Origin: Cellulomonas sp. 73-145
GTDB taxonomy: Bacteria > Actinomycetota > Actinomycetes > Actinomycetales > Cellulomonadaceae
Direction of reading: 5' to 3'
Assembly (NCBI GenBank): GCA_001898185.1
Contig: MKTI01000005.1
Span: 489,547 to 553,546, forward strand
Length of the DNA stretch: 64,000 bases
Shown here one piece after another: positions 53,447 to 62,864 of the stretch. The notes under the pieces were generated by a model. It ran no database searches. It was given only the letters and a program-made list of their open reading frames with translations, and was not told the origin of the DNA. Every line of letters starts with the position of its first letter. Position 1 is the first letter of the stretch. The translations under genes were made by a program, and so were the position numbers.

Positions 53447-54622
53447 TCAGCCGCGGTGCGGTGCCCTCGTCGTCCAGAGCACTTGGCGCAGGTCCTGGTA
53501 CTGCGGCTTGGGCTGCAGGTTGTCGTCGAACAGCAGGGCCGCACCCTCACCGGCGAACACCCCGGGGATCCACGAGTTGGAGTCCGCGACGCCCCAGACG
53601 GTGTAGGAGATGCAGCTGCGCACCGCGAGGCAGGCCTGCAGCGTCTGCTTCCAGTAGGACTCCTGGGTCGCCTGCAGCGCGGGCGTCAGCGGGACGTCGG
53701 TGTACGACCCCGGTTTGGCCGGGTCCGGCTGGACGAAGGTGCGCACGTCCACCTCGGTCAGTGCGACCTTCAGACCCAGCGCGGCGAACCGCTGCAGGTT
53801 GTTCTGCAGGTCCGGGAACCCGTACTGCGTGTCGAGGTGACCCTGGAAGCCCACGCCCGCGATCGGCACGCCGGCGGCCTGCAGCTGCTGCACGAAGGCG
53901 TACACCGCGTTGCTCTTCGCCCCGGTGAACTCGAGGTTGTAGTCGTTGTAGAACAGCAGCGCGTGCGGGTCGGCCTGGTGGGCCCACCGGAAGGCGTCGG
54001 CGATGTAGTCGAGCCCGTTCATGCCGAGCGCCTGGTAGGCCTTGTAGAAGATGTCCTGGCGCGGGGTGCCGTCGTCGTTGAACGCCTCGTTCACCACGTC
54101 CCACTGCCAGATCTGGCCGCGGAAGTGGCTGACCTCGTCGACCACGTGCTTGTGCAGCAGGTCCCGCACCTGCTGCGGCGTGAACGTGGTGGTGGTGCCG
54201 TCCGTGGACAGCCACGACGGCAGCTGGCTGTGCCACACGAGCGTGTGGCCGCGCACCAGCTGCTGGTTGTCCCGTGCGGCGGCGACGAGGCGGTCGGCGG
54301 CCGCCCAGTCGTAGGTGCCCTGCGTCGGCTCGACCAGCTGCCACTTCATGACGTTCTCGGGGGTGACCGTGCTGAACTGCTGGTCGACGATGCGGGTGTA
54401 GGCCGCGTCGGACCCGTACAGGTCCATGTTGACGGCGGTGCCGACCTTGAGGCCGGAGCGCTGCGCGAGGATGCGGAGGCTCGGCTGGGTGCTCAGGACG
54501 CTGTGGGCGGAGCGGTCGGGGGCGTCGGTGCCACGGACGTCCGATGCGGTCGCTACGGCGGGCGTCGCGGCGAGGGCGGCCGCCGCGAGGGCGGCCACGA
54601 GCAGGGGTTGACGGATGCGCAC
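53447..54622 (-). CDS. Secreted GH10 endo-1,4-beta-xylanase
   Basis: A 391-residue enzyme. A signal peptide (residues about 1-27, VRIRQPLLVAALAAAALAAT then AVATA) is followed by a single GH10 catalytic barrel and no carbohydrate-binding module. The acid/base Glu179 is in WDVVNEAFND and the nucleophile Glu290 is in LTEVDVRT. Other blocks: GHTLVWHSQLPSW, GFQGHLD and YTVWGVADSNSWI. It hydrolyses xylan outside the cell. GTG start after GGAGCACGCA; the longer open frame upstream lacks a signal peptide at its start. Confidence 0.94.
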   Translation of the reverse strand: MRIRQPLLVAALAAAALAATPAVATASDVRGTDAPDRSAHSVLSTQPSLRILAQRSGLKVGTAVNMDLYGSDAAYTRIVDQQFSTVTPENVMKWQLVEPTQGTYDWAAADRLVAAARDNQQLVRGHTLVWHSQLPSWLSTDGTTTTFTPQQVRDLLHKHVVDEVSHFRGQIWQWDVVNEAFNDDGTPRQDIFYKAYQALGMNGLDYIADAFRWAHQADPHALLFYNDYNLEFTGAKSNAVYAFVQQLQAAGVPIAGVGFQGHLDTQYGFPDLQNNLQRFAALGLKVALTEVDVRTFVQPDPAKPGSYTDVPLTPALQATQESYWKQTLQACLAVRSCISYTVWGVADSNSWIPGVFAGEGAALLFDDNLQPKPQYQDLRQVLWTTRAPHRG

Positions 54623-54687
54623 TGCGTGCTCCTTTGCAGCAGAGGGCTGCGCCCCTGGACGTCTCGCAGGTGGCGCCGCCAGCGTTC

Positions 54688-54710
54688 GATAACGTTTTAC
54701 ATCCGGATGT
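54688..54710. promoter_or_regulatory. Xylanase upstream operators: LacI-like box and 12-bp palindrome
   Basis: GATAACGTTTTAC (54688-54700) has the AACGTT centre typical of LacI-family operators of polysaccharide genes. It overlaps ACATCCGGATGT (54699-54710), a perfect 12-bp palindrome. Both lie 66-88 bp upstream of the xylanase start in a locally AT-richer stretch. Confidence 0.45.
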
Positions 54711-54830
54711 GCCTCGACAGTAGGTGCGGTCCCGACGTCGGTCAACCGGAACGACGAGACGAGTCACGAGCGTCGTGACTGCGTTCTCCGGCGGGTCCGG
54801 GGGTGTCCGACGACCACCGGCGCTCTGACC

Positions 54831-56063
54831 TCAGGCGATGCCCGACGACCCCGCGCCGGCGAGCCACCGCAGCACTCCCCCGGCCGCCACCACCCCGGTG
54901 CTGAAGCAGCCCTGCAGCAGGTAGCCGCCCGTGGGCGCCTCCCAGTCGAGCATCTCCCCGGCGACGAAGGTGCCCGGCAGCCGGTGCAGCATCAGCTGCT
55001 CGTCCACCTCCGACCACGCCACGCCGCCCGCGGTCGAGATCGCCCGGTCGATCGGCATGGTCCCCGTCACCACCACCGGCACGGCCTTGACCAGGGCGGC
55101 CGTCACCGCGGGGTCCGTCGGGAGGCCGCCGCCGGCCTCCCACAGCAGCGCCGTGGACACGGCGTCGAGCCCAATGCTGCGGCGGAGCCAGGACGGTGCC
55201 GAGTCCTTGGCGCGGCGGCGGGACAGCCGCTGCTGCAGCTCCTCGACCGTCAGGTCGGGCCGCAGGTCGACGTGCAGCACGCACCGCCCGTCGGCGTCGA
55301 GCGCCTCGCGGATCGGCACCCCGACGGCGTACACCGGTCCACCCTCGAGCCCGGCGGCGGTCACCATCGCGTCGCCCGTCGACGTGCCCGTCCGCCCGGG
55401 CACCGTCAGCGCCACGTGCTTGAGCGGCACGCCCGCGAACCGCTCGGCGAACACGGGCGACCACGCCACCCGCACCCCGACGTTCGCCGGCCGGAGCGCC
55501 CGCACCTGCACACCTCGTTCGCCGAGGAGCGACACCCAGCCGCCGTCCGAGCCGAGCCGGGGCCACGACGCACCGCCGAGCGCGAGCACGGTGGCGTCCG
55601 GGCGCACGTGCGTGACGGCACCGCCGGCGTCGACGAAGCTCAGCTCGCCGTCCTGCGTCCACCCGGTCCACCGCTCGCGCGTCCGGACCTGCACCCCGAG
55701 CCCCGCGAGCCGCGCCAGCCAGGCGCGCACCAGCGGGACGGCACGGAACGACGCGGGGAACACCCGCCCGCTCGACCCGACGAACGTCGGCTCGCCCAGG
55801 TCCGCGCACCACCGGCGCAACGCGTCGGGGCCGAAGGTCGCCAGCATCGGGTCGAGGCGGTCCGCCGACGGGCCGTACCGGGTGCGGAAGCGGTCGAGGG
55901 GTTCGGAGTGGGTGATGTTGAGGCCACCGTGGCCGGCCATGAGCAGCTTGCGCGCCACCGACGGCATGCGGTCGTGCACCGTGACGGTCACCCCGGCCTG
56001 CGCCAGGCGCTCCGCGGCGATCAGCCCGGCCGGACCGCCGCCGACCACGTGGACGGTGCTCAC
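54831..56063 (-). CDS. HI0933/BaiN-family flavoprotein (NAD(P)/FAD-dependent oxidoreductase)
   Basis: A 410-residue flavoprotein. It begins VHVVGGGPAGLIAAERLAQAG, then KLLMAGHGGLNITHSE, and has LALGGASWPRLGSDG, GTMPIDRAISTAGGV and a C-terminal GEMLDWEAPTGGYLLQGCFSTG block, all diagnostic of the HI0933/YhiN family. Members are poorly characterised; BaiN relatives act in bile-acid reduction. It ends the redox operon, its GTG overlapping the stop of the upstream gene by four bases. Its role as a soluble partner in that operon is inferred from position. Confidence 0.87.
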   Translation of the reverse strand: MSTVHVVGGGPAGLIAAERLAQAGVTVTVHDRMPSVARKLLMAGHGGLNITHSEPLDRFRTRYGPSADRLDPMLATFGPDALRRWCADLGEPTFVGSSGRVFPASFRAVPLVRAWLARLAGLGVQVRTRERWTGWTQDGELSFVDAGGAVTHVRPDATVLALGGASWPRLGSDGGWVSLLGERGVQVRALRPANVGVRVAWSPVFAERFAGVPLKHVALTVPGRTGTSTGDAMVTAAGLEGGPVYAVGVPIREALDADGRCVLHVDLRPDLTVEELQQRLSRRRAKDSAPSWLRRSIGLDAVSTALLWEAGGGLPTDPAVTAALVKAVPVVVTGTMPIDRAISTAGGVAWSEVDEQLMLHRLPGTFVAGEMLDWEAPTGGYLLQGCFSTGVVAAGGVLRWLAGAGSSGIA

Positions 56064-56581
56064 GCGCGCGGTGCTCCCGGTCGGCGCGGCCCGCGCGGGA
56101 CGAAGCGCGGCGTGCGCGCCGCGTACTCCGGGTAGGCGGCGAACCGGCGCGCGAGCCGCGCCTCCTCCCACCGCGCCTTGGCGGTCAGCAGCACGACGAG
56201 GGCGCCGAACGCCAGGGCGCGCCAGCCGCTGCCGGTGGCGACGACGTACGAGCCGGAGGCGAGCAGCAGGCCGCTGTAGATCGGGTGCCGCACCAGCCCG
56301 TACAGGCCGCCGGTGCGCAGCTGCGCGTGCTCGTTGGGGATCGGCACGGCGGTCAGTCCGCGGCCCAGCGCCGTGCCGGCCAGCAGCATGACGACGGCGC
56401 CGACCACGACGCCCAGCACCCCGAGGGCGCGCAGCCACCCCGGCACGGGCCAGCCCCAGCCGCGGGGCAGGAGCGCGATCAGCGCCAGGAGCAGGAACTG
56501 CGCCGCCACCAGCAGCCGTGCGGTGCGCACCTCGCCGGCGGAGAAGGTGCCACCACCTTCGTCGTCGCCGCTGCTGGTCAC
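56060..56581 (-). CDS. Small membrane protein of the isoprenylcysteine methyltransferase-like (PEMT/NnrU) family
   Basis: A 173-residue protein with four hydrophobic helices and the family core GLYGLVRHPIYSGLLL followed by a basic EEARLARRFAAYPEYAARTPRFVP tail. Proteins of this fold methylate prenyl-cysteine or lipids in some cases; in bacteria the substrate is mostly unknown. GTG start. It is the penultimate gene of the redox operon, 27 bp after the ferredoxin gene. Confidence 0.8.
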   Translation of the reverse strand: MTSSGDDEGGGTFSAGEVRTARLLVAAQFLLLALIALLPRGWGWPVPGWLRALGVLGVVVGAVVMLLAGTALGRGLTAVPIPNEHAQLRTGGLYGLVRHPIYSGLLLASGSYVVATGSGWRALAFGALVVLLTAKARWEEARLARRFAAYPEYAARTPRFVPRGPRRPGAPRA

Positions 56582-56608
56582 CGGCCCATGATGCCGGAGC
56601 GCCGCACG

Positions 56609-56839
56609 TCAGCGGTCCGGGACCGCGCTCTCGAGCCACAGGGCCTTGCGAGGGCAGGCGCGCACGGCTCGGCGCGCCTGACGCGTCGCAGCGCCCGGCT
56701 CGAGCTCGGCGGCGAGCACCGGGTAGCCCCAGCGGTCCAGCGTGACGCTTCGGTCGGCGACCTGCGCGCACAGGCCGACGCCCTCGCACGCCACCGGGTC
56801 CACGCGCAGCCGCACGGCCGGGCCGGGATCGCGGCTCAC
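56609..56839 (-). CDS. Single-cluster ferredoxin, three-cysteine type
   Basis: A 76-residue ferredoxin with VACEGVGLCAQ and a distal ACPRKAL, giving three cysteines in a C-x5-C...C-P pattern that fits a [3Fe-4S] cluster, like the monocluster ferredoxins that serve cytochromes P450. No P450 gene is nearby. Its GTG overlaps the stop of the NuoF-like gene by four bases in the mirrored order of the operon, so it is made together with that protein, which is a plausible electron donor or acceptor. Confidence 0.88.
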   Translation of the reverse strand: MSRDPGPAVRLRVDPVACEGVGLCAQVADRSVTLDRWGYPVLAAELEPGAATRQARRAVRACPRKALWLESAVPDR

Positions 56840-58167
56840 CGACGCTCTCCGGGGGTCGGCCCGGTGGACGCGGGCACCGCGGACGACGGCAACGAGGACG
56901 ACCATCCGGCGGATGACGGCCCCGACCCGCCCGCGACGCACGGACGCCCGGCTCGGTGCGCCGCGACGTCCGCCTCGAAGGTCGCCACGGCGGACGCGAC
57001 CAGCCGGGTGGCCCCGTCCGGGTGGTGGCAGGCGCCGCGGCCCTCCACCGCTCCCGCGTCGTCGAGCACCTCCCCGAGTACGTCACGGCCCTCGGCGAGC
57101 GCCCGCCACGAGTCGGCCAGCGCCGGCAGCCCGAACCGGCAGGGACCGCACTGGCGCGCGCTCATCGAGGCGAGGTAGTCCACCAGGTCGGCCGTCGCAC
57201 GCAGCCCGCACTCGCCGGCCGCCAGCGGCAGCACCACCCCCGCGCCGAGGGTCAGCCCCTCGGCGCGCAGCGCACGCTCGTCCACCGGCAGGTGGGACAG
57301 CCGCTCCCACGGTGCCCACAGCCCGCCGTACCCGCCGAGCAGCACCGCCTGCGGTGCCGCGGGCCAGCCCAGGCCGGCGAGCAGCTGACCGAACGTGGTG
57401 GTCTGCTCGACCTCGACCACCACCCGGTCCGCACCGAGCACCGACAGCAGCCGGGTGCCGGCCGGGGCGTGCCCGCGGGCGAGCAGCGCGAGGCGGGCCA
57501 GGGTCTCGACGTTGTGCACCAGCGTCCTCGGCGCCCGGGGGTCGCCCCGCCGGCGGCGGACGGTGGGCAGGGCCGGGCCGCCCTGCACTGCCCGGGTGAT
57601 GGCGCTCGACTCCCCCGCGAGGTAGTGCACCGGTCCCATCAGCACCTCGACCGGCAGCCGCGAGTCGCTCCAGCGCCGCTCGGCCAGCGCGGCGAGCAGC
57701 GCGCGACGGCCACCGTCGTCGTCGCCGTGCAGCCAGACCACGGCACGATGGGCGCCCAGCGACTCGGCCGCCAGCATCAGGCCGTCCAGCACCAGGTGCG
57801 GGCGCTGGCGCAGCAGCGTGCCGTCCTTGCCAGCCACCGGCTCGCTCTCGGCGCCGTTGGCCACCACCGTCAACGGTCCGGCGCCCGCCGCGACCGCCCG
57901 CCAGCGCAGCGCGGCGGCGACGTGCGCGCCGCCGTGGCCGGTCAGCCGGGCGGCCTCGAGCAGGTCGACCAGCCGGGGGTCGCCGAGCGGCCGCGGACCG
58001 AGGCGGTCGAGGTGCACGTCCAGCGGCTCGGCGGCGACGGGCTCGACCGGGTCGGCGGGGCCGGAACGGTGCAGCCGCACGTCCCGCAGCAGCAGCCGGC
58101 GCGCGCCGTCCACCGGGGCACCGACCGTGCGCCCGGGCAGCGTCGGGAACGCTGAGAGCCCGGTCAT
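56836..58167 (-). CDS. NuoF-like NADH/FMN-binding flavoprotein (51-kDa subunit family)
   Basis: A 443-residue homologue of the complex I 51-kDa subunit outside any nuo operon. The FMN/NADH fold has VVANGAESEPVAGKDGTLL, then an SLBB-like region and a C-terminal iron-sulfur module. There the usual four-cysteine motif is reduced: MSARQCGPCRFG has two cysteines where NuoF has three, plus one in GACHHPDG. The missing first Cys may give a [3Fe-4S] cluster or none. It probably draws electrons from NADH for the ferredoxin and membrane protein of the same operon. ATG overlaps the upstream stop. Confidence 0.85.
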   Translation of the reverse strand: MTGLSAFPTLPGRTVGAPVDGARRLLLRDVRLHRSGPADPVEPVAAEPLDVHLDRLGPRPLGDPRLVDLLEAARLTGHGGAHVAAALRWRAVAAGAGPLTVVANGAESEPVAGKDGTLLRQRPHLVLDGLMLAAESLGAHRAVVWLHGDDDGGRRALLAALAERRWSDSRLPVEVLMGPVHYLAGESSAITRAVQGGPALPTVRRRRGDPRAPRTLVHNVETLARLALLARGHAPAGTRLLSVLGADRVVVEVEQTTTFGQLLAGLGWPAAPQAVLLGGYGGLWAPWERLSHLPVDERALRAEGLTLGAGVVLPLAAGECGLRATADLVDYLASMSARQCGPCRFGLPALADSWRALAEGRDVLGEVLDDAGAVEGRGACHHPDGATRLVASAVATFEADVAAHRAGRPCVAGGSGPSSAGWSSSLPSSAVPASTGPTPGERR

Positions 58168-58988
58168 CGCCACGGCCCGCGCCCCACCACGGGGATCGGT
58201 CGGGTGGGAGCCGTGTCCCGACCTGCGCGGCCGGACTGGCGCTCCGGCCGGAGACCGGTGAGCGCGTCGTCGCTCCACGCCGCGTCGTCCGCCACCGCCG
58301 GCGACGGCACCCGCTGCAGGTCACGGGCGAGCTCGCCGACCTCGTCGGCCGGCGTGCGCGCCGCGTACCGCGTCACTGCCAGGGCCACCACGGCGCAGCC
58401 CGTGCCCACGTAGAAGCCACGCAGCGCGGCCACGTCGGAGCCGGCCAGCACGCTGTGCGCCCACACGAGCACCAGCAGCCCGGCCGCCACCTTGTGCACG
58501 GGCCACCACAGCCGGCCGAGCAGCCGGCCCGCGAACCGTGCGGTCAGGCCGGTGACGAGCCCCGCCCACGCGGCGATCACGCCGAGGCTGACCGGCACCG
58601 GGCGGTAGACGGCCGCCATCGGCAGCAGTGCGCCCATCCAGCCGACCTTCGCCCACGGGTCCGTGGCCAGCACCACCACGTGCAGCACCGTGAACGCGAG
58701 GGTGAACGTGGCCAGGCCGGCGTGCAGGGCCAGCCTGGTGCGCGCCGACGGGTGGCGCAGGTGGCGTGCCCACGGGTGTGCCAGCACGATGCCGGTGCCG
58801 ACCAGCAGGAGCAGCAGCACGTACGACGTCAGGCCCGCGGCCCGCCCGAGCACCCAGTGCGCCATGCGCCCACCTGCCGCGTCGAGCACCAGCGAGCCGG
58901 CCGCCGCCAGGCTGGCCGCCGTGGCGAGCACCAGCACCGCGGTGGCTGCGCTCAGCAGCACGGGACGGGACTCCTGCGCGCGGCTCAT
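58164..58988 (-). CDS. Ferric-reductase/cytochrome b561-like integral membrane protein without flavin domain
   Basis: A 274-residue protein with about six hydrophobic helices followed by a 60-residue polar tail. Histidines lie in helices at places fitting two haem b groups (RMAHWVLGRAAGLTSY, RLALHAGLATFTLAFTVLHVVVL, WWPVHKVAAGLLVLVWAHSVL). It resembles the transmembrane part of ferric reductases but lacks the FAD/NAD domain, which the adjacent NuoF-like flavoprotein could supply. It would carry electrons across the membrane to an outside acceptor. ATGA overlap with apbE. Confidence 0.82.
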   Translation of the reverse strand: MSRAQESRPVLLSAATAVLVLATAASLAAAGSLVLDAAGGRMAHWVLGRAAGLTSYVLLLLLVGTGIVLAHPWARHLRHPSARTRLALHAGLATFTLAFTVLHVVVLATDPWAKVGWMGALLPMAAVYRPVPVSLGVIAAWAGLVTGLTARFAGRLLGRLWWPVHKVAAGLLVLVWAHSVLAGSDVAALRGFYVGTGCAVVALAVTRYAARTPADEVGELARDLQRVPSPAVADDAAWSDDALTGLRPERQSGRAGRDTAPTRPIPVVGRGPWR

Positions 58989-60037
58989 GCGGCCCGCCAG
59001 ACGACGTAGGGCTCCATCGCGGCCGACACGCGGACCGCACCGCTGTCCGTCACCCAGGCCGCGGCCAGCTCGCGGACGTGGGCCTGCGCCTCGACCTCGA
59101 CGACGCCGGCGAGGAACAGGGTCTTGCTCCACACCTCCGCCCACATCGGGTCCGGGTGCAGCACCGTCACCGCGGCCAGGCCGGGGCCGCCGGGACGGCC
59201 GGTGCGGGGGTCGACGAGGTGGTGCACGGACGTGCCGTCCGGCGCCGCCCAGTGCCGTCGCCGCACGGAGGAGGTGGCACAGCCGCGGTCGGTGACGGAG
59301 AGCACCAGCACGGGGTCCGCACCGCCGTGGGGATCCTCGACGCCCACCGTCCAGCCGTTGCCGTCCGGACCGGCGCCGCCGAGCCACTCGTCACCTCCGG
59401 CGTCCACCAGCACCGCGCTGCCGGCCCCGACGAGCGCCCGGGCGGCACGCCGCACCGCCAGGCCCTTGCCGATGCCGCCCAGGTCGATCGGCGCCCCGTC
59501 GAGCTGCACGAGCCGCCGGTCGGTGCCGGGCAGCACCGTCGGGCGCCAGGGCCGTCGAGTCCCGCGGGGCCCCGGCGTGCCGGCCGAGCCGGCCGAGCCC
59601 ACCGCGCCCGTCGGGCCAACCGCGCCGGTCGAGCCCACCGCGCGGGTCGAGGCCGTCGGGCCGGTCGAGGCCGTCGTGCCCCTCGTACTGCCGACCACCT
59701 CGTCGAACGTCCGGTCGTACCCCCAGGCCAGCAGCTGGTCGAGCACGCGCGGGTCGAACAGCCCGCCCGTCATCCGGTGGGCGCGCTCCGCCTCCTCGAC
59801 CGCCTCGGCGAGCTCCTCGGGCACGACGTGCCAGGACGACGGCCGGGCGTTGAGCCTGGACAGGGCTGAGGTCGCCTCGAACCGGGTCAGGTGCGTGGCG
59901 ACGGACCGGATGGCGACGCGCGCCGCCTCGACCGCCCGCGGCGCGTCCGGCCCAGGGTCGACGACCCGCAGCTCCACGTCGCTGGCCATGGACCGGAACG
60001 TGGTGCTCAGCTCGCGGGACCGGGTGCCGGCCGTCAT
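58985..60037 (-). CDS. apbE: ApbE-family FAD:protein FMN transferase with collagen-like insertion
   Basis: A 350-residue ApbE protein. Family blocks: TTFRSMASDVELRVVD, HLTRFEATSALSRLNA, GGLFDPRVLDQLLAWGYDRTF, LGGIGKGLAVRRAA, LVDAGGDEWLGG, and HHLVDPRTGRPGG with TDRGCATSS near the metal site. It attaches FMN covalently to Thr/Ser of acceptor proteins. Residues about 116-160 are a Gly-Ser-Thr-Ala-Pro-rich insertion with Gly-x-y periodicity (GSTGAVGPTGAVGSAGSAG). No obvious lipobox or signal peptide is visible, so it may act inside the cell or its acceptor lies elsewhere. It shares one base with the upstream stop. Confidence 0.9.
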   Translation of the reverse strand: MTAGTRSRELSTTFRSMASDVELRVVDPGPDAPRAVEAARVAIRSVATHLTRFEATSALSRLNARPSSWHVVPEELAEAVEEAERAHRMTGGLFDPRVLDQLLAWGYDRTFDEVVGSTRGTTASTGPTASTRAVGSTGAVGPTGAVGSAGSAGTPGPRGTRRPWRPTVLPGTDRRLVQLDGAPIDLGGIGKGLAVRRAARALVGAGSAVLVDAGGDEWLGGAGPDGNGWTVGVEDPHGGADPVLVLSVTDRGCATSSVRRRHWAAPDGTSVHHLVDPRTGRPGGPGLAAVTVLHPDPMWAEVWSKTLFLAGVVEVEAQAHVRELAAAWVTDSGAVRVSAAMEPYVVWRAA

Positions 60038-60435
60038 CAGGAGGCCTTGGTGGTCGTGTGCACCGGAGGGGCGGCCGGTGCTGGGGCGGCGGCGGGTGCC
60101 GGTGCCGCCGCGCGGGCCGGTGCCTTGGCGGGCGCCGCCGGTGCCGGTGCAGCAGGAGCGACGGGGGCGGCCGCCGCGGCGTGCGCAGCCGCAGCCTGCT
60201 GGTCCAGGGTCGCCTGGAGCGCCACGATGCGGGTCCGTGCGTCCTGGATCGCCGCGAGGGCGGCCGCCACCTGCGGGTCCGGGGTCGCGGACGCCACGGG
60301 CACCGGCGGTGCGGTCGGCACGGCGGCCGGCTCGTGGGACGCCGCCCAGGCGACGCCGCCGCCGAACCCGCCCACGCTCAACGGGACCAGCCCGAGGGCC
60401 GCGAGACGCCGGACCTGACGGCCGCGGTCAGTCAT
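60037..60435 (-). CDS. Exported or membrane-anchored Ala/Pro-rich protein of the redox operon
   Basis: A 132-residue protein with a basic start, one hydrophobic segment (about residues 13-31, LGLVPLSVGGFGGGVAWAA), a short helical region with QVAALAAIQDARTRIVALQATLDQQ that could form a coiled coil, and a long Ala/Pro-rich tail. No known domain. The ALAAIQDARTRI helix and the organisation match the next gene upstream, so the two look like diverged duplicates. Possibly a wall-spanning scaffold for the electron-transfer proteins encoded downstream. Confidence 0.7.
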   Translation of the reverse strand: MTDRGRQVRRLAALGLVPLSVGGFGGGVAWAASHEPAAVPTAPPVPVASATPDPQVAAALAAIQDARTRIVALQATLDQQAAAAHAAAAAPVAPAAPAPAAPAKAPARAAAPAPAAAPAPAAPPVHTTTKAS

Positions 60436-60817
60436 CGGACCCGGAGCCGTCGTGCTCGGCCGACTCGTGCTCGCCGGACTCGTGCTCGGGCTGCTCCGGC
60501 TCGTGCGCCACGACGGGTGCCTGCTGCACGGGCGCAACGTCCGGTGCGGGAGCCGGGCTGTCGTCGACCGGTCCGGGCGCCGCCGCTGTCGCGACCGGTG
60601 CCGGCACCTGCGCCGCCGCAGCCTCGAGCCGGGCGAGCTGCTCCTGCAGGTCGTGGGCCTCCTGGTTCAGCGCCGCCACCTGCGGGTCCTGGTCGGCGAC
60701 CGCCGAGGGTGCGGGCTGCGGCGTGCCGGTCGCGGCGTAGGCGGCGGTGAGCACACCGGCGCCGACGAGCGCGACGCCCGCCGTGCCGGCGAGTGCGGTG
60801 CGAACGGTCCAGCGCAT
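60428..60817 (-). CDS. Membrane-anchored coiled-coil protein with His/Glu-rich tail, first gene of the redox operon
   Basis: A 129-residue protein: hydrophobic segment at residues about 8-29, then DPQVAALNQEAHDLQEQLARLEAAA, a short coiled coil that shares the DPQVAAL motif with the following gene, a Pro/Ala linker, and a C-terminal tail rich in His, Glu and Asp (HEPEQPEHESGEHESAEHDG) that could bind metal ions. No known domain. AAGGAGGAC before the ATG is the best ribosome site in the operon. A candidate regulator box lies 85 bp upstream. Confidence 0.72.
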   Translation of the reverse strand: MRWTVRTALAGTAGVALVGAGVLTAAYAATGTPQPAPSAVADQDPQVAALNQEAHDLQEQLARLEAAAAQVPAPVATAAAPGPVDDSPAPAPDVAPVQQAPVVAHEPEQPEHESGEHESAEHDGSGSDD

Positions 60818-60901: not shown

Positions 60902-60919
60902 GGCTAAGAGTGGGTTAAC
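60902..60919 (-). promoter_or_regulatory. OmpR-type direct-repeat box upstream of the redox operon (copy 1)
   Basis: Read on the minus strand: GTTAACC-CACT-CTTAGCC, two 7-base half-sites with 11-bp period. It matches CTTAACG-TTCC-CTTGGCC at 62937-62954. The box overlaps the last codons of the kinase gene, including a rare TTA leucine codon. Confidence 0.55.
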
Positions 60920-62187
60920 GCCGACGGGAGGACCAGGGCGAACCGGGCACCTCGCCCCTCGAGCCCGGGTCCGACCTCGAGCCGCCCGCCCGCCCGCTCG
61001 GCAGTCCGCCGCGCCACGTCGACCCCGAGACCGGTGGAGCCGGTCCCCGACCGCCCGCGCTGGGTGAGAGCGCCGTCGGCCAGTCCCGGGCCTGCGTCCG
61101 CGACGGCCACCACGACGACCCCGGGGCCGCGGTGCACCGTGAGCGCGAGCGCTGTCCCGGTGGGCGTGTGCCGCAGCACGTTGTCCACCAGCACGTCCAG
61201 CGCGGCGCCGAGCTCGGCCGCCCCGACGTCGACCGGAGTGGGCCCGGGCGGCACGTCCACGGTCAGCGGACGGCCCTGGTGGACGGCGAGCACACCCCAG
61301 AACGTGGCGCGGGCCCGGACCACCTCCGCCGCGTCGCACGCCGCCGGCAGTCGTGGGTCGTGGGTGCGGGCGGCGTGGATGACGGTGTCGACCGCGGCGA
61401 CCAGTCCGTCGACGTGCGCGCCCACCTGCGCACGCTCGGCGGGGTCGGCCAGCAGGTCGACGTCGAGGCGGAGCGCCGTGATGGGGGTGCGCAGCCGGTG
61501 CGAGAGGTCGGCGACCAGCTCGCGCTCGTCGGCGAGCAGACCGGCGACCCGGTCGCCGAGCCCGTTCAGCACCGCGCCCACGGACACGATCTCGGCCGGA
61601 CCGCTCGGCGCCACCCGGGCGCCGAGGTCACCGGAGCCGAGACGTTCGGCGACGTCCGCCAGGTCGCGCACGGACCGGGACAGCCGGGCGGCGATCCGGT
61701 CCCCCGCGAAGGCCGTGACGACCAGCAGCACGACGCCCACCAGGGCGAGCACGCTCCAGGCGCGCATCACCCCGGCGGTGAGCAGCGCATCGGGCACGAA
61801 GGTGCGCACCACGGCGGTGCCGGCCGGGCCCCCGACCGGCAGCAGCACCTCGACACCGCCGTCGGCCCTCGCGGTCAGCGCACGCCCGAGGGTGGCGAGG
61901 TCGACGGCCGGGGTGCGCGACGCCGGCGAGCCGACGACGCTGCCGTCGGGCAGGAACACGCTGGTGCGCCGGGCCCCGCCGTTCACGGCGAGCAGGGTGG
62001 CCTGCAACCGCGACGGGTCCTGCGCGACCACTCCCGTGAACATCGCCACCTGCTGGGCGTCCTGACGCGCGCCGGTGAGCGCCCGCTCGGCGGCGAGCGA
62101 GCGGGCGAGCAGCCCGAGCGGCACGAGGAAGGCGACGAGCATGACGGAGGTCATCGCCAGGCCGTAGCGGACCAGGAGGCCTCTCAC
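60904..62187 (-). CDS. Sensor histidine kinase of the redox-operon two-component system
   Basis: A 427-residue membrane kinase. Helix 1 is about residues 9-30 and helix 2 about 143-162, enclosing an extracytoplasmic sensor domain of about 110 residues. HAMP domain, then the phospho-acceptor His230 in ADLSHRLRTPITAL and an ATPase domain (VLVDNVLRHTPTG, GSTGLGVDVARR). The signal is unknown. GTG start overlapping the regulator stop. The third-last sense codon but one is TTA, rare in this genome, within a putative regulator box. Confidence 0.9.
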   Translation of the reverse strand: MRGLLVRYGLAMTSVMLVAFLVPLGLLARSLAAERALTGARQDAQQVAMFTGVVAQDPSRLQATLLAVNGGARRTSVFLPDGSVVGSPASRTPAVDLATLGRALTARADGGVEVLLPVGGPAGTAVVRTFVPDALLTAGVMRAWSVLALVGVVLLVVTAFAGDRIAARLSRSVRDLADVAERLGSGDLGARVAPSGPAEIVSVGAVLNGLGDRVAGLLADERELVADLSHRLRTPITALRLDVDLLADPAERAQVGAHVDGLVAAVDTVIHAARTHDPRLPAACDAAEVVRARATFWGVLAVHQGRPLTVDVPPGPTPVDVGAAELGAALDVLVDNVLRHTPTGTALALTVHRGPGVVVVAVADAGPGLADGALTQRGRSGTGSTGLGVDVARRTAERAGGRLEVGPGLEGRGARFALVLPSALTHS

Positions 62188-62864
62188 GACGGCGGCACCA
62201 GCTTGACGCCCACCCCGCGCACCCGGTGCAGGTAGACCGGCTCCTCCGCCGTCTCGCCGAGCTTGCGCCGCAGCCAGTGCAGGTGCACGTCCACCGTCTT
62301 GTCCGCACCGCCGTACGGCTGGTTCCACACCTTGGCCAGCAGCTCCCGCTTCGCGACCACCTCGCCGCTGCGCTCGGCCAGGTAGGCCAGCAGGTCGAAC
62401 TCCTTGGGGCTCAGCTCCAGGGGGTTGCCGTCCAGGGTGACGGTCCGGGACCGCACGTCGATCACCAGCCCGCCGGCCACCAGGGGCCCGGGCGGCCGGG
62501 CGTGGTCGGAGCGGCGCAGCACGGCCCGGATCCGCGCCTCGAGCTGGTCGGCGGCGAAGGGCTTGACCAGGTAGTCGTCTGCACCCGCGTCGAGCACGGC
62601 GACGATTCCCGCACCCTCGTCGCGCGCGCTGATGACGATCACCGGTACCTGCGACACGGCGCGGATCATCGCCAGCAGCGCCGCACCGTCCAGGTCCGGC
62701 AGCCCGAGGTCCAGCAGCACCACGTCCGGCGGGTGGTCCACCAGGCTCTGCAGCCCCTCCAGGGCGTTGGGTGCGGTCATCGTGGAGTGCGCGCGCGCCG
62801 ACAGGGACCGCACCAGCGCGGTCCGGATCGTCACGTCGTCCTCGATGATGAGCACGTCCGCCAC
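62184..62864 (-). CDS. OmpR-type response regulator of the redox-operon two-component system
   Basis: A 226-residue regulator: acidic pair in IIEDD, phospho-acceptor Asp52 (VVLLDLGLPDLDG), Lys in YLVKPFAADQ, and a winged helix (LSPKEFDLLAYLAER, VDVHLHWLRRKLGE, RVRGVGVKLVPPS). GTG start at 62864; a second in-frame GTG is nine bases downstream. Matching direct-repeat boxes upstream of both this region and the redox operon suggest it controls that operon and possibly the divergent hypothetical gene. Confidence 0.92.
   Translation of the reverse strand: MADVLIIEDDVTIRTALVRSLSARAHSTMTAPNALEGLQSLVDHPPDVVLLDLGLPDLDGAALLAMIRAVSQVPVIVISARDEGAGIVAVLDAGADDYLVKPFAADQLEARIRAVLRRSDHARPPGPLVAGGLVIDVRSRTVTLDGNPLELSPKEFDLLAYLAERSGEVVAKRELLAKVWNQPYGGADKTVDVHLHWLRRKLGETAEEPVYLHRVRGVGVKLVPPS

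Follow-up and report, generated by a model that had tools for sequence, protein, structure and literature searches.

The window analyzed here, a 64,000-nucleotide stretch of the Cellulomonas sp. 73-145 genome that terminates at a contig end, carries eight open reading frames in a row on the minus strand (positions 54831..60817), which we call A to H in the order in which they are read. Our subject is the first six, and in particular what the ApbE encoded by C may modify. A (60428..60817) appears from its sequence to be an exported or single-transmembrane (single-TM) protein with an acidic tail that ends in SDD. B (60037..60435), likewise exported or single-TM, has 132 amino acids and is the proposed ApbE substrate; the codons of its C-terminal heptapeptide HTTTKAS, the proposed flavin tag with the terminal Ser132 as putative acceptor, occupy 60040..60060. 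C (58985..60037) is an ApbE of the type that we call tail-associated (Pfam ApbE, PF02424, 1.2e-45). D (58164..58988) is a polytopic four-His membrane protein that looks ferric-reductase/STEAP-like from its conserved His and a weak fold match, E (56836..58167) is a NuoF-like flavoprotein (Pfam Complex1_51K, 3.8e-24; NADH_4Fe-4S, 2e-11), and F (56609..56839) is a three-Cys ferredoxin (Pfam Fer4_15, 3e-8). For A, B, and D, Pfam and NCBIfam profile scans give no significant match.

An earlier note on this DNA had read A to H as one operon with overlaps of 1 to 8 bp at nearly all junctions. All eight frames are present, and six of the seven junctions do overlap (A-B by 8 bp, B-C by 1 bp, and C-D, D-E, E-F, and G-H by 4 bp each), but F and G are separated by a 27-bp gap and the eight genes are not a single unit. 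To define the unit, we fetched the neighborhoods of relatives of E, including the best 80 of 571 named contigs and amounting to 160 loci in all, among which we recognized 92 distinct apbE clusters, i.e., those where apbE adjoins the membrane-protein or NuoF gene. Genes were called with our own codon-usage script and the starts are approximate; 5 of 50 loci first scored as ApbE-less do contain an ApbE that the gene caller missed. The membrane-protein, NuoF, and ferredoxin genes lie on the same strand in 73 of the 92 clusters. A PEMT-like gene is nearby in only three and an HI0933-like gene in two, which rules out the eight-gene unit.

The conserved unit is therefore the six genes A to F, below a two-component system, which here consists of a sensor histidine kinase (HAMP, HisKA, HATPase_c; 60904..62187, minus strand, 86 bp upstream of A) and a response regulator (Response_reg and Trans_reg_C; 62184..62861, minus strand, provisional start, with the open frame extending to 63602). 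Relatives of both kinase and regulator occur near apbE in 33 of the 92 clusters. The remaining two genes of the block, G (56060..56581) and H (54831..56063), are probably not module members. G is a PEMT/ICMT-like membrane methyltransferase, for which the ICMT label of the earlier note fits less well (6.8e-4, below the ICMT cut-off) than PEMT (Pfam, 3.3e-7), and H is an HI0933-like flavoprotein (Pfam HI0933-like, 2.9e-66; TIGR03862).

Conservation of the neighborhood, on which the earlier note had staked its reading, extends far beyond close strains for A to F but not for G and H. The arrangement recurs across Actinomycetota and is also found on two Chloroflexota metagenome contigs. The nearest named relative, Cellulomonas sp. 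SG140 (86% in E), has the full set, G and H included. The module is nevertheless patchily distributed: of 17 genomes sampled in the genus, that of the window is alone in having a match to E at a threshold of E 1e-25. Three mycobacterial genomes carry the module in two pieces, with tail, membrane protein, and NuoF (L045, L046, L205) away from ApbE (L248-L250); these ApbE loci hold genes that resemble a two-component system by eye, and a ferredoxin adjoins ApbE in two of the three. After the block, a GH10 xylanase gene follows on the same strand (53447-54745), and SG140 has a gene of equal length at the same place (L127).

The C-terminal tails of B and its relatives

A candidate small exported protein is encoded directly upstream of ApbE in 83 of the 92 clusters. 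These tail proteins have one N-terminal hydrophobic helix followed by a median of 91 residues, mostly Ala, Ser, Thr, Pro, and Gly, and most end in a motif like that of ApbE substrates. In a review (PMC12052999), the ApbE site, as defined by experiment, is given as D-x-x-[ST]-G-A-[ST], with seven residues sufficing, a minor effect of changing the Asp to Ala, and the best performance of tags at a terminus. Within the last 12 residues, a relaxed motif, [ST]x[AG][ST], is found in 76 of the 83 tails against 20.9 in shuffles of their last 40 residues; the strict form, [ST]G[AG][ST], is found in 45 against 3.6, and the 7-mer [DHNQE]xx[ST]x[AG][ST] in 55 against 1.8. Two of the 76 (L106 and L183) are doubtful candidates. 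The relaxed, strict, and 7-mer motifs occur in 86, 22, and 21 of 1847 other genes of the same loci, in 20, 1, and 4 of 360 genes that overlap the next gene, and in 23, 9, and 6 of 144 small single-TM genes, a set that still includes A proteins and the tails of clusters without an adjacent apbE. Window B ends in HTTTKAS, whose TKAS departs from the strict form. Among 18 aligned B proteins, the TM segment ends at an invariant W30, and after it only P123, T129, and S132 are invariant, the last two being motif positions.

The tails carry no detectable FMN_bind domain (the flavin mononucleotide [FMN]-binding domain). We retained 80 tail proteins for a motif or near variant and scanned 77 of them against Pfam at E 0.01: none matches FMN_bind, and no family is common to any two. 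No NCBIfam family covers more than three. By charge, 73 of the 80 motif-bearing proteins are oriented N-in, which would place the tail outside. No folded domain is recognizable in B, and an AlphaFold2 model of it has a helix at residues 54-89, then about 43 residues of coil and no strand (mean pLDDT 72, pTM 0.37). Some A proteins may carry a second site, given that 5 of 20 acidic-tailed A partners contain an internal 7-mer such as HTTTGAS; window A lacks a flavinylation-like site. The earlier note had considered the ApbE target unknown, which now looks too pessimistic with an ApbE-type site at or near the C terminus of B and in some relatives of A, and its suggestion that the exported proteins serve as scaffold or terminal carriers becomes specific to these same proteins.

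Other arrangements were seen as well. At L236 and L238, proteins of about 240 amino acids ending in TYTRGS precede ApbE and a membrane protein of about 430 amino acids, a larger form of the module with no NuoF nearby. At L264, tandem small single-TM proteins ending in NTSGS and TTSGGS lie beside ApbE on the opposite strand.

Tail-associated ApbEs and FMN_bind proteins

The ApbEs of these clusters differ from those of ordinary flavinylation systems at one position of the active site. That position is Asp285 (Vibrio cholerae numbering), which the review PMC12052999 counts as a member of a proposed catalytic triad; we located its column by aligning with solved ApbE structures through phmmer. The column holds Asp in all 26 ApbEs beside FMN_bind-like genes, 5 of which were assigned to this group after the Asp was seen and had their neighbors checked later (21 of 21 excluding them). 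Among the 92 cluster ApbEs it holds Asn in 59 and Glu in 32, with one row misaligned (L054), and among 28 further ApbEs from ApbE-search regions (21 from genomes without an FMN_bind match and 7, L263-L269, from genomes with one) it holds Glu in 16 and Asn in 12, so that 119 of 120 tail-associated ApbEs have Asn or Glu. Ser241 and His257 are conserved in 90 of the 92 cluster ApbEs, 28 of the 28 further ones, and 26 of the 26 beside FMN_bind-like genes. The window ApbE has Glu, with Ser and His kept; its residues ~118-165 form a Gly/Ser/Thr-rich, collagen-like insert (GSTGAVGPTGAVG...) that is not found in the same form in nine relatives, where the stretches vary in length and composition. By these aligned residues, the tail-associated ApbEs are a distinct type.

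In a quick tree of 141 rows (those with fewer than 181 aligned residues and L054 dropped), the Asp, Asn, and Glu states need three changes, and on this alignment the state is a clade marker. With Asn-type ApbEs, Ser is mostly the last residue of the tail (55 of 59); with Glu-type ApbEs, the tail often extends past it (24 of 39 that could be scored, with 3 left unscored). In this count L037, scored as Asn with an extended tail, is a motif-picker artifact whose tail SSQGS ends at Ser, L106 is doubtful, and whatever gene lay upstream of a further ApbE was treated as its tail. It is tempting to see coevolution here (Fisher p 5e-9), but the tree offers only one independent pair, and we rejected that claim. 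With only three changes needed on the tree, the association is a lead only.

The earlier note found no FMN-binding domain in the window, which holds for the eight proteins scanned by Pfam, and the genome-wide check that it proposed yields two proteins outside the window, at C5:477402 and C6:863175 (L002, ~863 kb). Besides C, the genome has one further ApbE gene. The FMN_bind protein at C5 ~477-478 kb (L270) is flanked by an Asp-type ApbE whose N terminus is not hydrophobic and by what looks by eye like the gene of a ferric-reductase-type oxidoreductase, an ordinary system in the same genome. A hidden Markov model grown from the two FMN_bind domains of this genome finds an FMN_bind-like domain at all 26 loci of the FMN_bind group.

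We sampled 296 genomes evenly across the class and found ApbE in 168, of which 111 have an FMN_bind match (all FMN_bind genomes have ApbE) and 57 have ApbE only. We examined 17 of the 24 ApbE-only genomes without the NuoF family (E 1e-25, a cut-off that we chose from the match table), namely those whose ApbE location was listed and easily taken. A relaxed-motif tail precedes ApbE in nine (L232 and L237 from raw open frames); two have near variants (TKSS, TWSS), one has a poor match (SSQS), one has nothing (L243), and four (L244-L247) have a divergent FMN_bind-like neighbor with an Asp-type ApbE. Together with L261 and L262, these make six loci where an FMN_bind-like protein lies beside an Asp-type ApbE, five of them (not L261) from ApbE-only genomes; all but L247 are the loci assigned late to the FMN_bind group of 26, and the ApbE of L247, which is in neither ApbE group, reads CDALAT and thus also has Asp. 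Where tail clusters lack an adjacent apbE, the genome has ApbE elsewhere in 12 of 12 cases (11 with the relaxed motif; L188 ends in ARGS), and at eight NuoF loci of seven ApbE-negative genomes no tail was found among the genes called. Of 22 hand-picked module-bearing genomes, 12 have no FMN_bind match, though divergent FMN_bind could be missed.

Redox partners, the proposed path, and alternatives

The other members of the module are candidate electron carriers. Across the 35 relatives aligned with D, His89 and His103 are invariant, and conservation of His165 and His178 is 90% or higher. Even at E 1, no Pfam family matches D, PF01794 included, and no flavin or NAD domain was found in it, in keeping with the earlier description of a membrane protein without its flavin domain. 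Its model (pLDDT 79) is closest to STEAP2, STEAP1, NOX5, and SpNOX (best E 0.09, probabilities 0.96-1.0). The four His and the weak fold match suggest that D is a distant relative of PF01794-type proteins, and we infer that it binds two b hemes. Right after the TM helix, 17 of the 80 tail proteins have a W-A-x-x-H-[DEQ]-P motif (B residues 30-36), which possibly contacts the outer heme. E matches the Nuo51 FMN-binding domain and PF10589 (E 2e-11). All 23 sequences aligned have Ala in place of the first Cys of the 4Fe-4S motif, and Cys340, Cys343, and Cys380 are invariant, as is His382, beside the last Cys; the cluster is possibly a three-Cys or Cys3His cluster. As the earlier note held, this NuoF-like protein lacks a complex, with no complex I partner genes among the window neighbors scanned. 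F has no relative of solved structure at E 0.001, and we take its three cysteines to recall those of 3Fe-4S ferredoxins.

Our proposal is that B receives FMN from C on its terminal serine; B would be a membrane-anchored or exported, Pro/Ala-rich tether without an FMN_bind domain, with A as carrier of a second site in some relatives. NAD(P)H would be oxidized by E, and the electrons would reach the two-heme membrane protein D by way of F, the three-Cys ferredoxin, and go on from D to the FMN tethered on B and an outside acceptor. The earlier note had drawn much the same route from the NuoF-like protein through ferredoxin and membrane heme protein to the outside; it is plausible, and MsrQ-like clusters with a NuoF-like gene have been published; the order of carriers is our presumption. 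We think it fairly likely that the tails of B-type proteins are the ApbE substrate, and we hold the whole electron path only tentatively, at somewhat below even chances.

A number of observations count against modification of the tails. Nine of the 92 clusters have no candidate tail protein, and 7 of the 83 candidates lack the relaxed motif (four are near variants, TKPS twice, TKSS, and TGSS, and three are apparently wrong candidates). Window B has Lys for the motif Gly and His for the motif Asp, and Lys or Arg at the Gly position is the rule in Cellulomonadaceae-like relatives; with the window motif this degenerate, the proposal is better founded for the family at large than for window B. According to the review (PMC12052999), changing the site Gly to Ala cuts flavinylation to about half, and Thr accepts the flavin better than Ser does. 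The Asp replaced in these ApbEs is one of the proposed triad residues, so activity might be lost or altered. By a crude hydrophobicity test, 88 of the 92 ApbEs, window C included, lack a hydrophobic N-terminal stretch; as the tail should lie outside, the flavin would have to be added before export, yet signals like those of twin-arginine translocation (Tat) are rare in the tail proteins (2 of 80). The genome of the window itself holds two FMN_bind proteins, and at least 5 of the 57 ApbE-only genomes have a divergent FMN_bind and are false orphans. Finally, the NuoF family is not significantly more frequent in ApbE-only genomes than in those with FMN_bind (33 of 57 versus 53 of 111, p 0.25).

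How else might the data be explained? The ApbE of the module could modify an ordinary FMN_bind protein, with the tails as mere linkers or docking peptides, and two such proteins share the genome with only one ApbE gene besides C. However, the one at C5:477 kb has its own adjoining Asp-type ApbE (L270), FMN_bind matches are missing from many genomes that have this type of ApbE (the 12 of 22 above), and what the tail motif resembles is the ApbE site, not just any peptide, all of which makes this explanation improbable. Alternatively, the ApbE clade may recognize the tail without transferring FMN, as a binding protein or a transferase for another group. The loss of Asp from the proposed triad (PMC12052999) in 119 of 120 sequences would fit, but Ser241 and His257 are retained in all but two of the 92 and in every row elsewhere, Glu could still bind Mg2+, and the membrane heme protein and NuoF partner suit a flavin redox role; we doubt that transfer has been given up.

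A nucleotide effect, whereby the GS/GAS pattern reflects the ribosome-binding site and start of apbE overlapping the end of B, would suit the overlaps of 1 to 8 bp and does explain the acidic SDD end of A (ATGACTGA). For the tail of B, codon usage, controls with overlapping genes, and motifs that are internal or not quite terminal led us to reject it, and it has hardly any chance of being correct: the Gly codons of strict motifs (GGC 17, GGT 12, GGG 8, GGA 8) are not Shine-Dalgarno-like, only 4 of 360 other overlapping genes have the 7-mer, the motif is internal in 5 of 20 A proteins and stands 1-5 residues before the end in many tails, and it is present in five clean cases where all possible apbE starts lie at least 20 bases downstream. 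The chain as the earlier note wrote it, an iron-reducing extracellular electron-transfer system, has its MsrQ-like and NuoF-like parts in place, and the 153 published MsrQ-like clusters include the iron transporter VIT1 (PMC8238504). Still, no iron transporter or terminal reductase was found among the window genes scanned beside the module, and the electrons could just as well go to oxygen, a quinone, or an envelope enzyme, so iron reduction in particular seems unlikely.

Modification of the tails thus stays our preferred reading, and it invites a bolder one, which we regard as rather a long shot. Across Actinomycetota and on the two Chloroflexota contigs, an Asn/Glu ApbE clade would perform a second kind of protein flavinylation, in which disordered exported tethers without a domain receive FMN on their C-terminal serine, and many orphan ApbEs would find their missing substrates in these tethers. 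For the Asn type, the terminal carboxylate of the substrate, adjacent to the acceptor hydroxyl, would stand in for the lost Asp; this would account for the pairing of Asn with tails that stop right at Ser and of Glu with tails that often continue.

Comparison with known flavinylation systems

The closest published systems are the MsrQ-like flavinylation clusters of Actinobacteria, 31 of which have a NuoF-like gene (Meheust et al. 2021, PMC8238504). They share with the module apbE and a membrane heme protein of the MsrQ/ferric-reductase class, of which D is a putative relative, and the 31 also share the NuoF-like PF10589 protein. In contrast, MsrQ-like clusters typically have a gene for an FMN-binding domain, and none was found among the eight proteins of the block or the 77 tail proteins scanned. 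The published MsrQ-like definition also includes a signal peptide or lipid site on the ApbE, FMN-bind, DUF3570, or DUF2271 gene; by the crude hydrophobicity test, C has no such signal and only 4 of its 92 relatives do. With PF01794, FMN_bind, and a signal-bearing target not found, the module falls outside the published definition but may work alike, and the published filter would miss clusters of this kind. With STEAP, NOX, and ferric reductase proteins, D shares the four conserved His and the nearest solved folds, but it lacks their flavin/NAD domain and the fold match is weak (best E 0.09).

Our literature search, which covered titles and the starts of abstracts, with supplements and subscription papers outside its scope, brought up no paper that we recognized as a description of disordered proteins with a C-terminal flavin tag. 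The nearest natural parallel is provided by FMN_red proteins, mostly from Firmicutes, for which flavinylation on an unstructured C-terminal extension has been shown experimentally (Huang et al. 2024, PMC11334425). There, the flavin sits beside a folded FMN_red domain, whereas B has no recognizable folded flavin domain. The module is probably a variant of flavin-based electron export in which the flavin is carried on the terminal tag of a disordered exported protein. If this is true, extracytosolic electron transfer can be served by a covalent flavin that sits outside any folded flavin domain, C-terminal tags would be the substrate for many of the remaining ApbE-only genomes, and the ApbE active site changed along with its substrate. 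The tag itself has an engineered counterpart in the Flavin-tag (Tong et al. 2021), in which a terminal seven-residue peptide is enough for ApbE, as reported in PMC12052999 and PMC10722498. The Flavin-tag is engineered and uses the V. cholerae ApbE, whereas the tag of the module is apparently natural, with another ApbE type and a looser motif; if our reading is right, the Flavin-tag is nature's invention.

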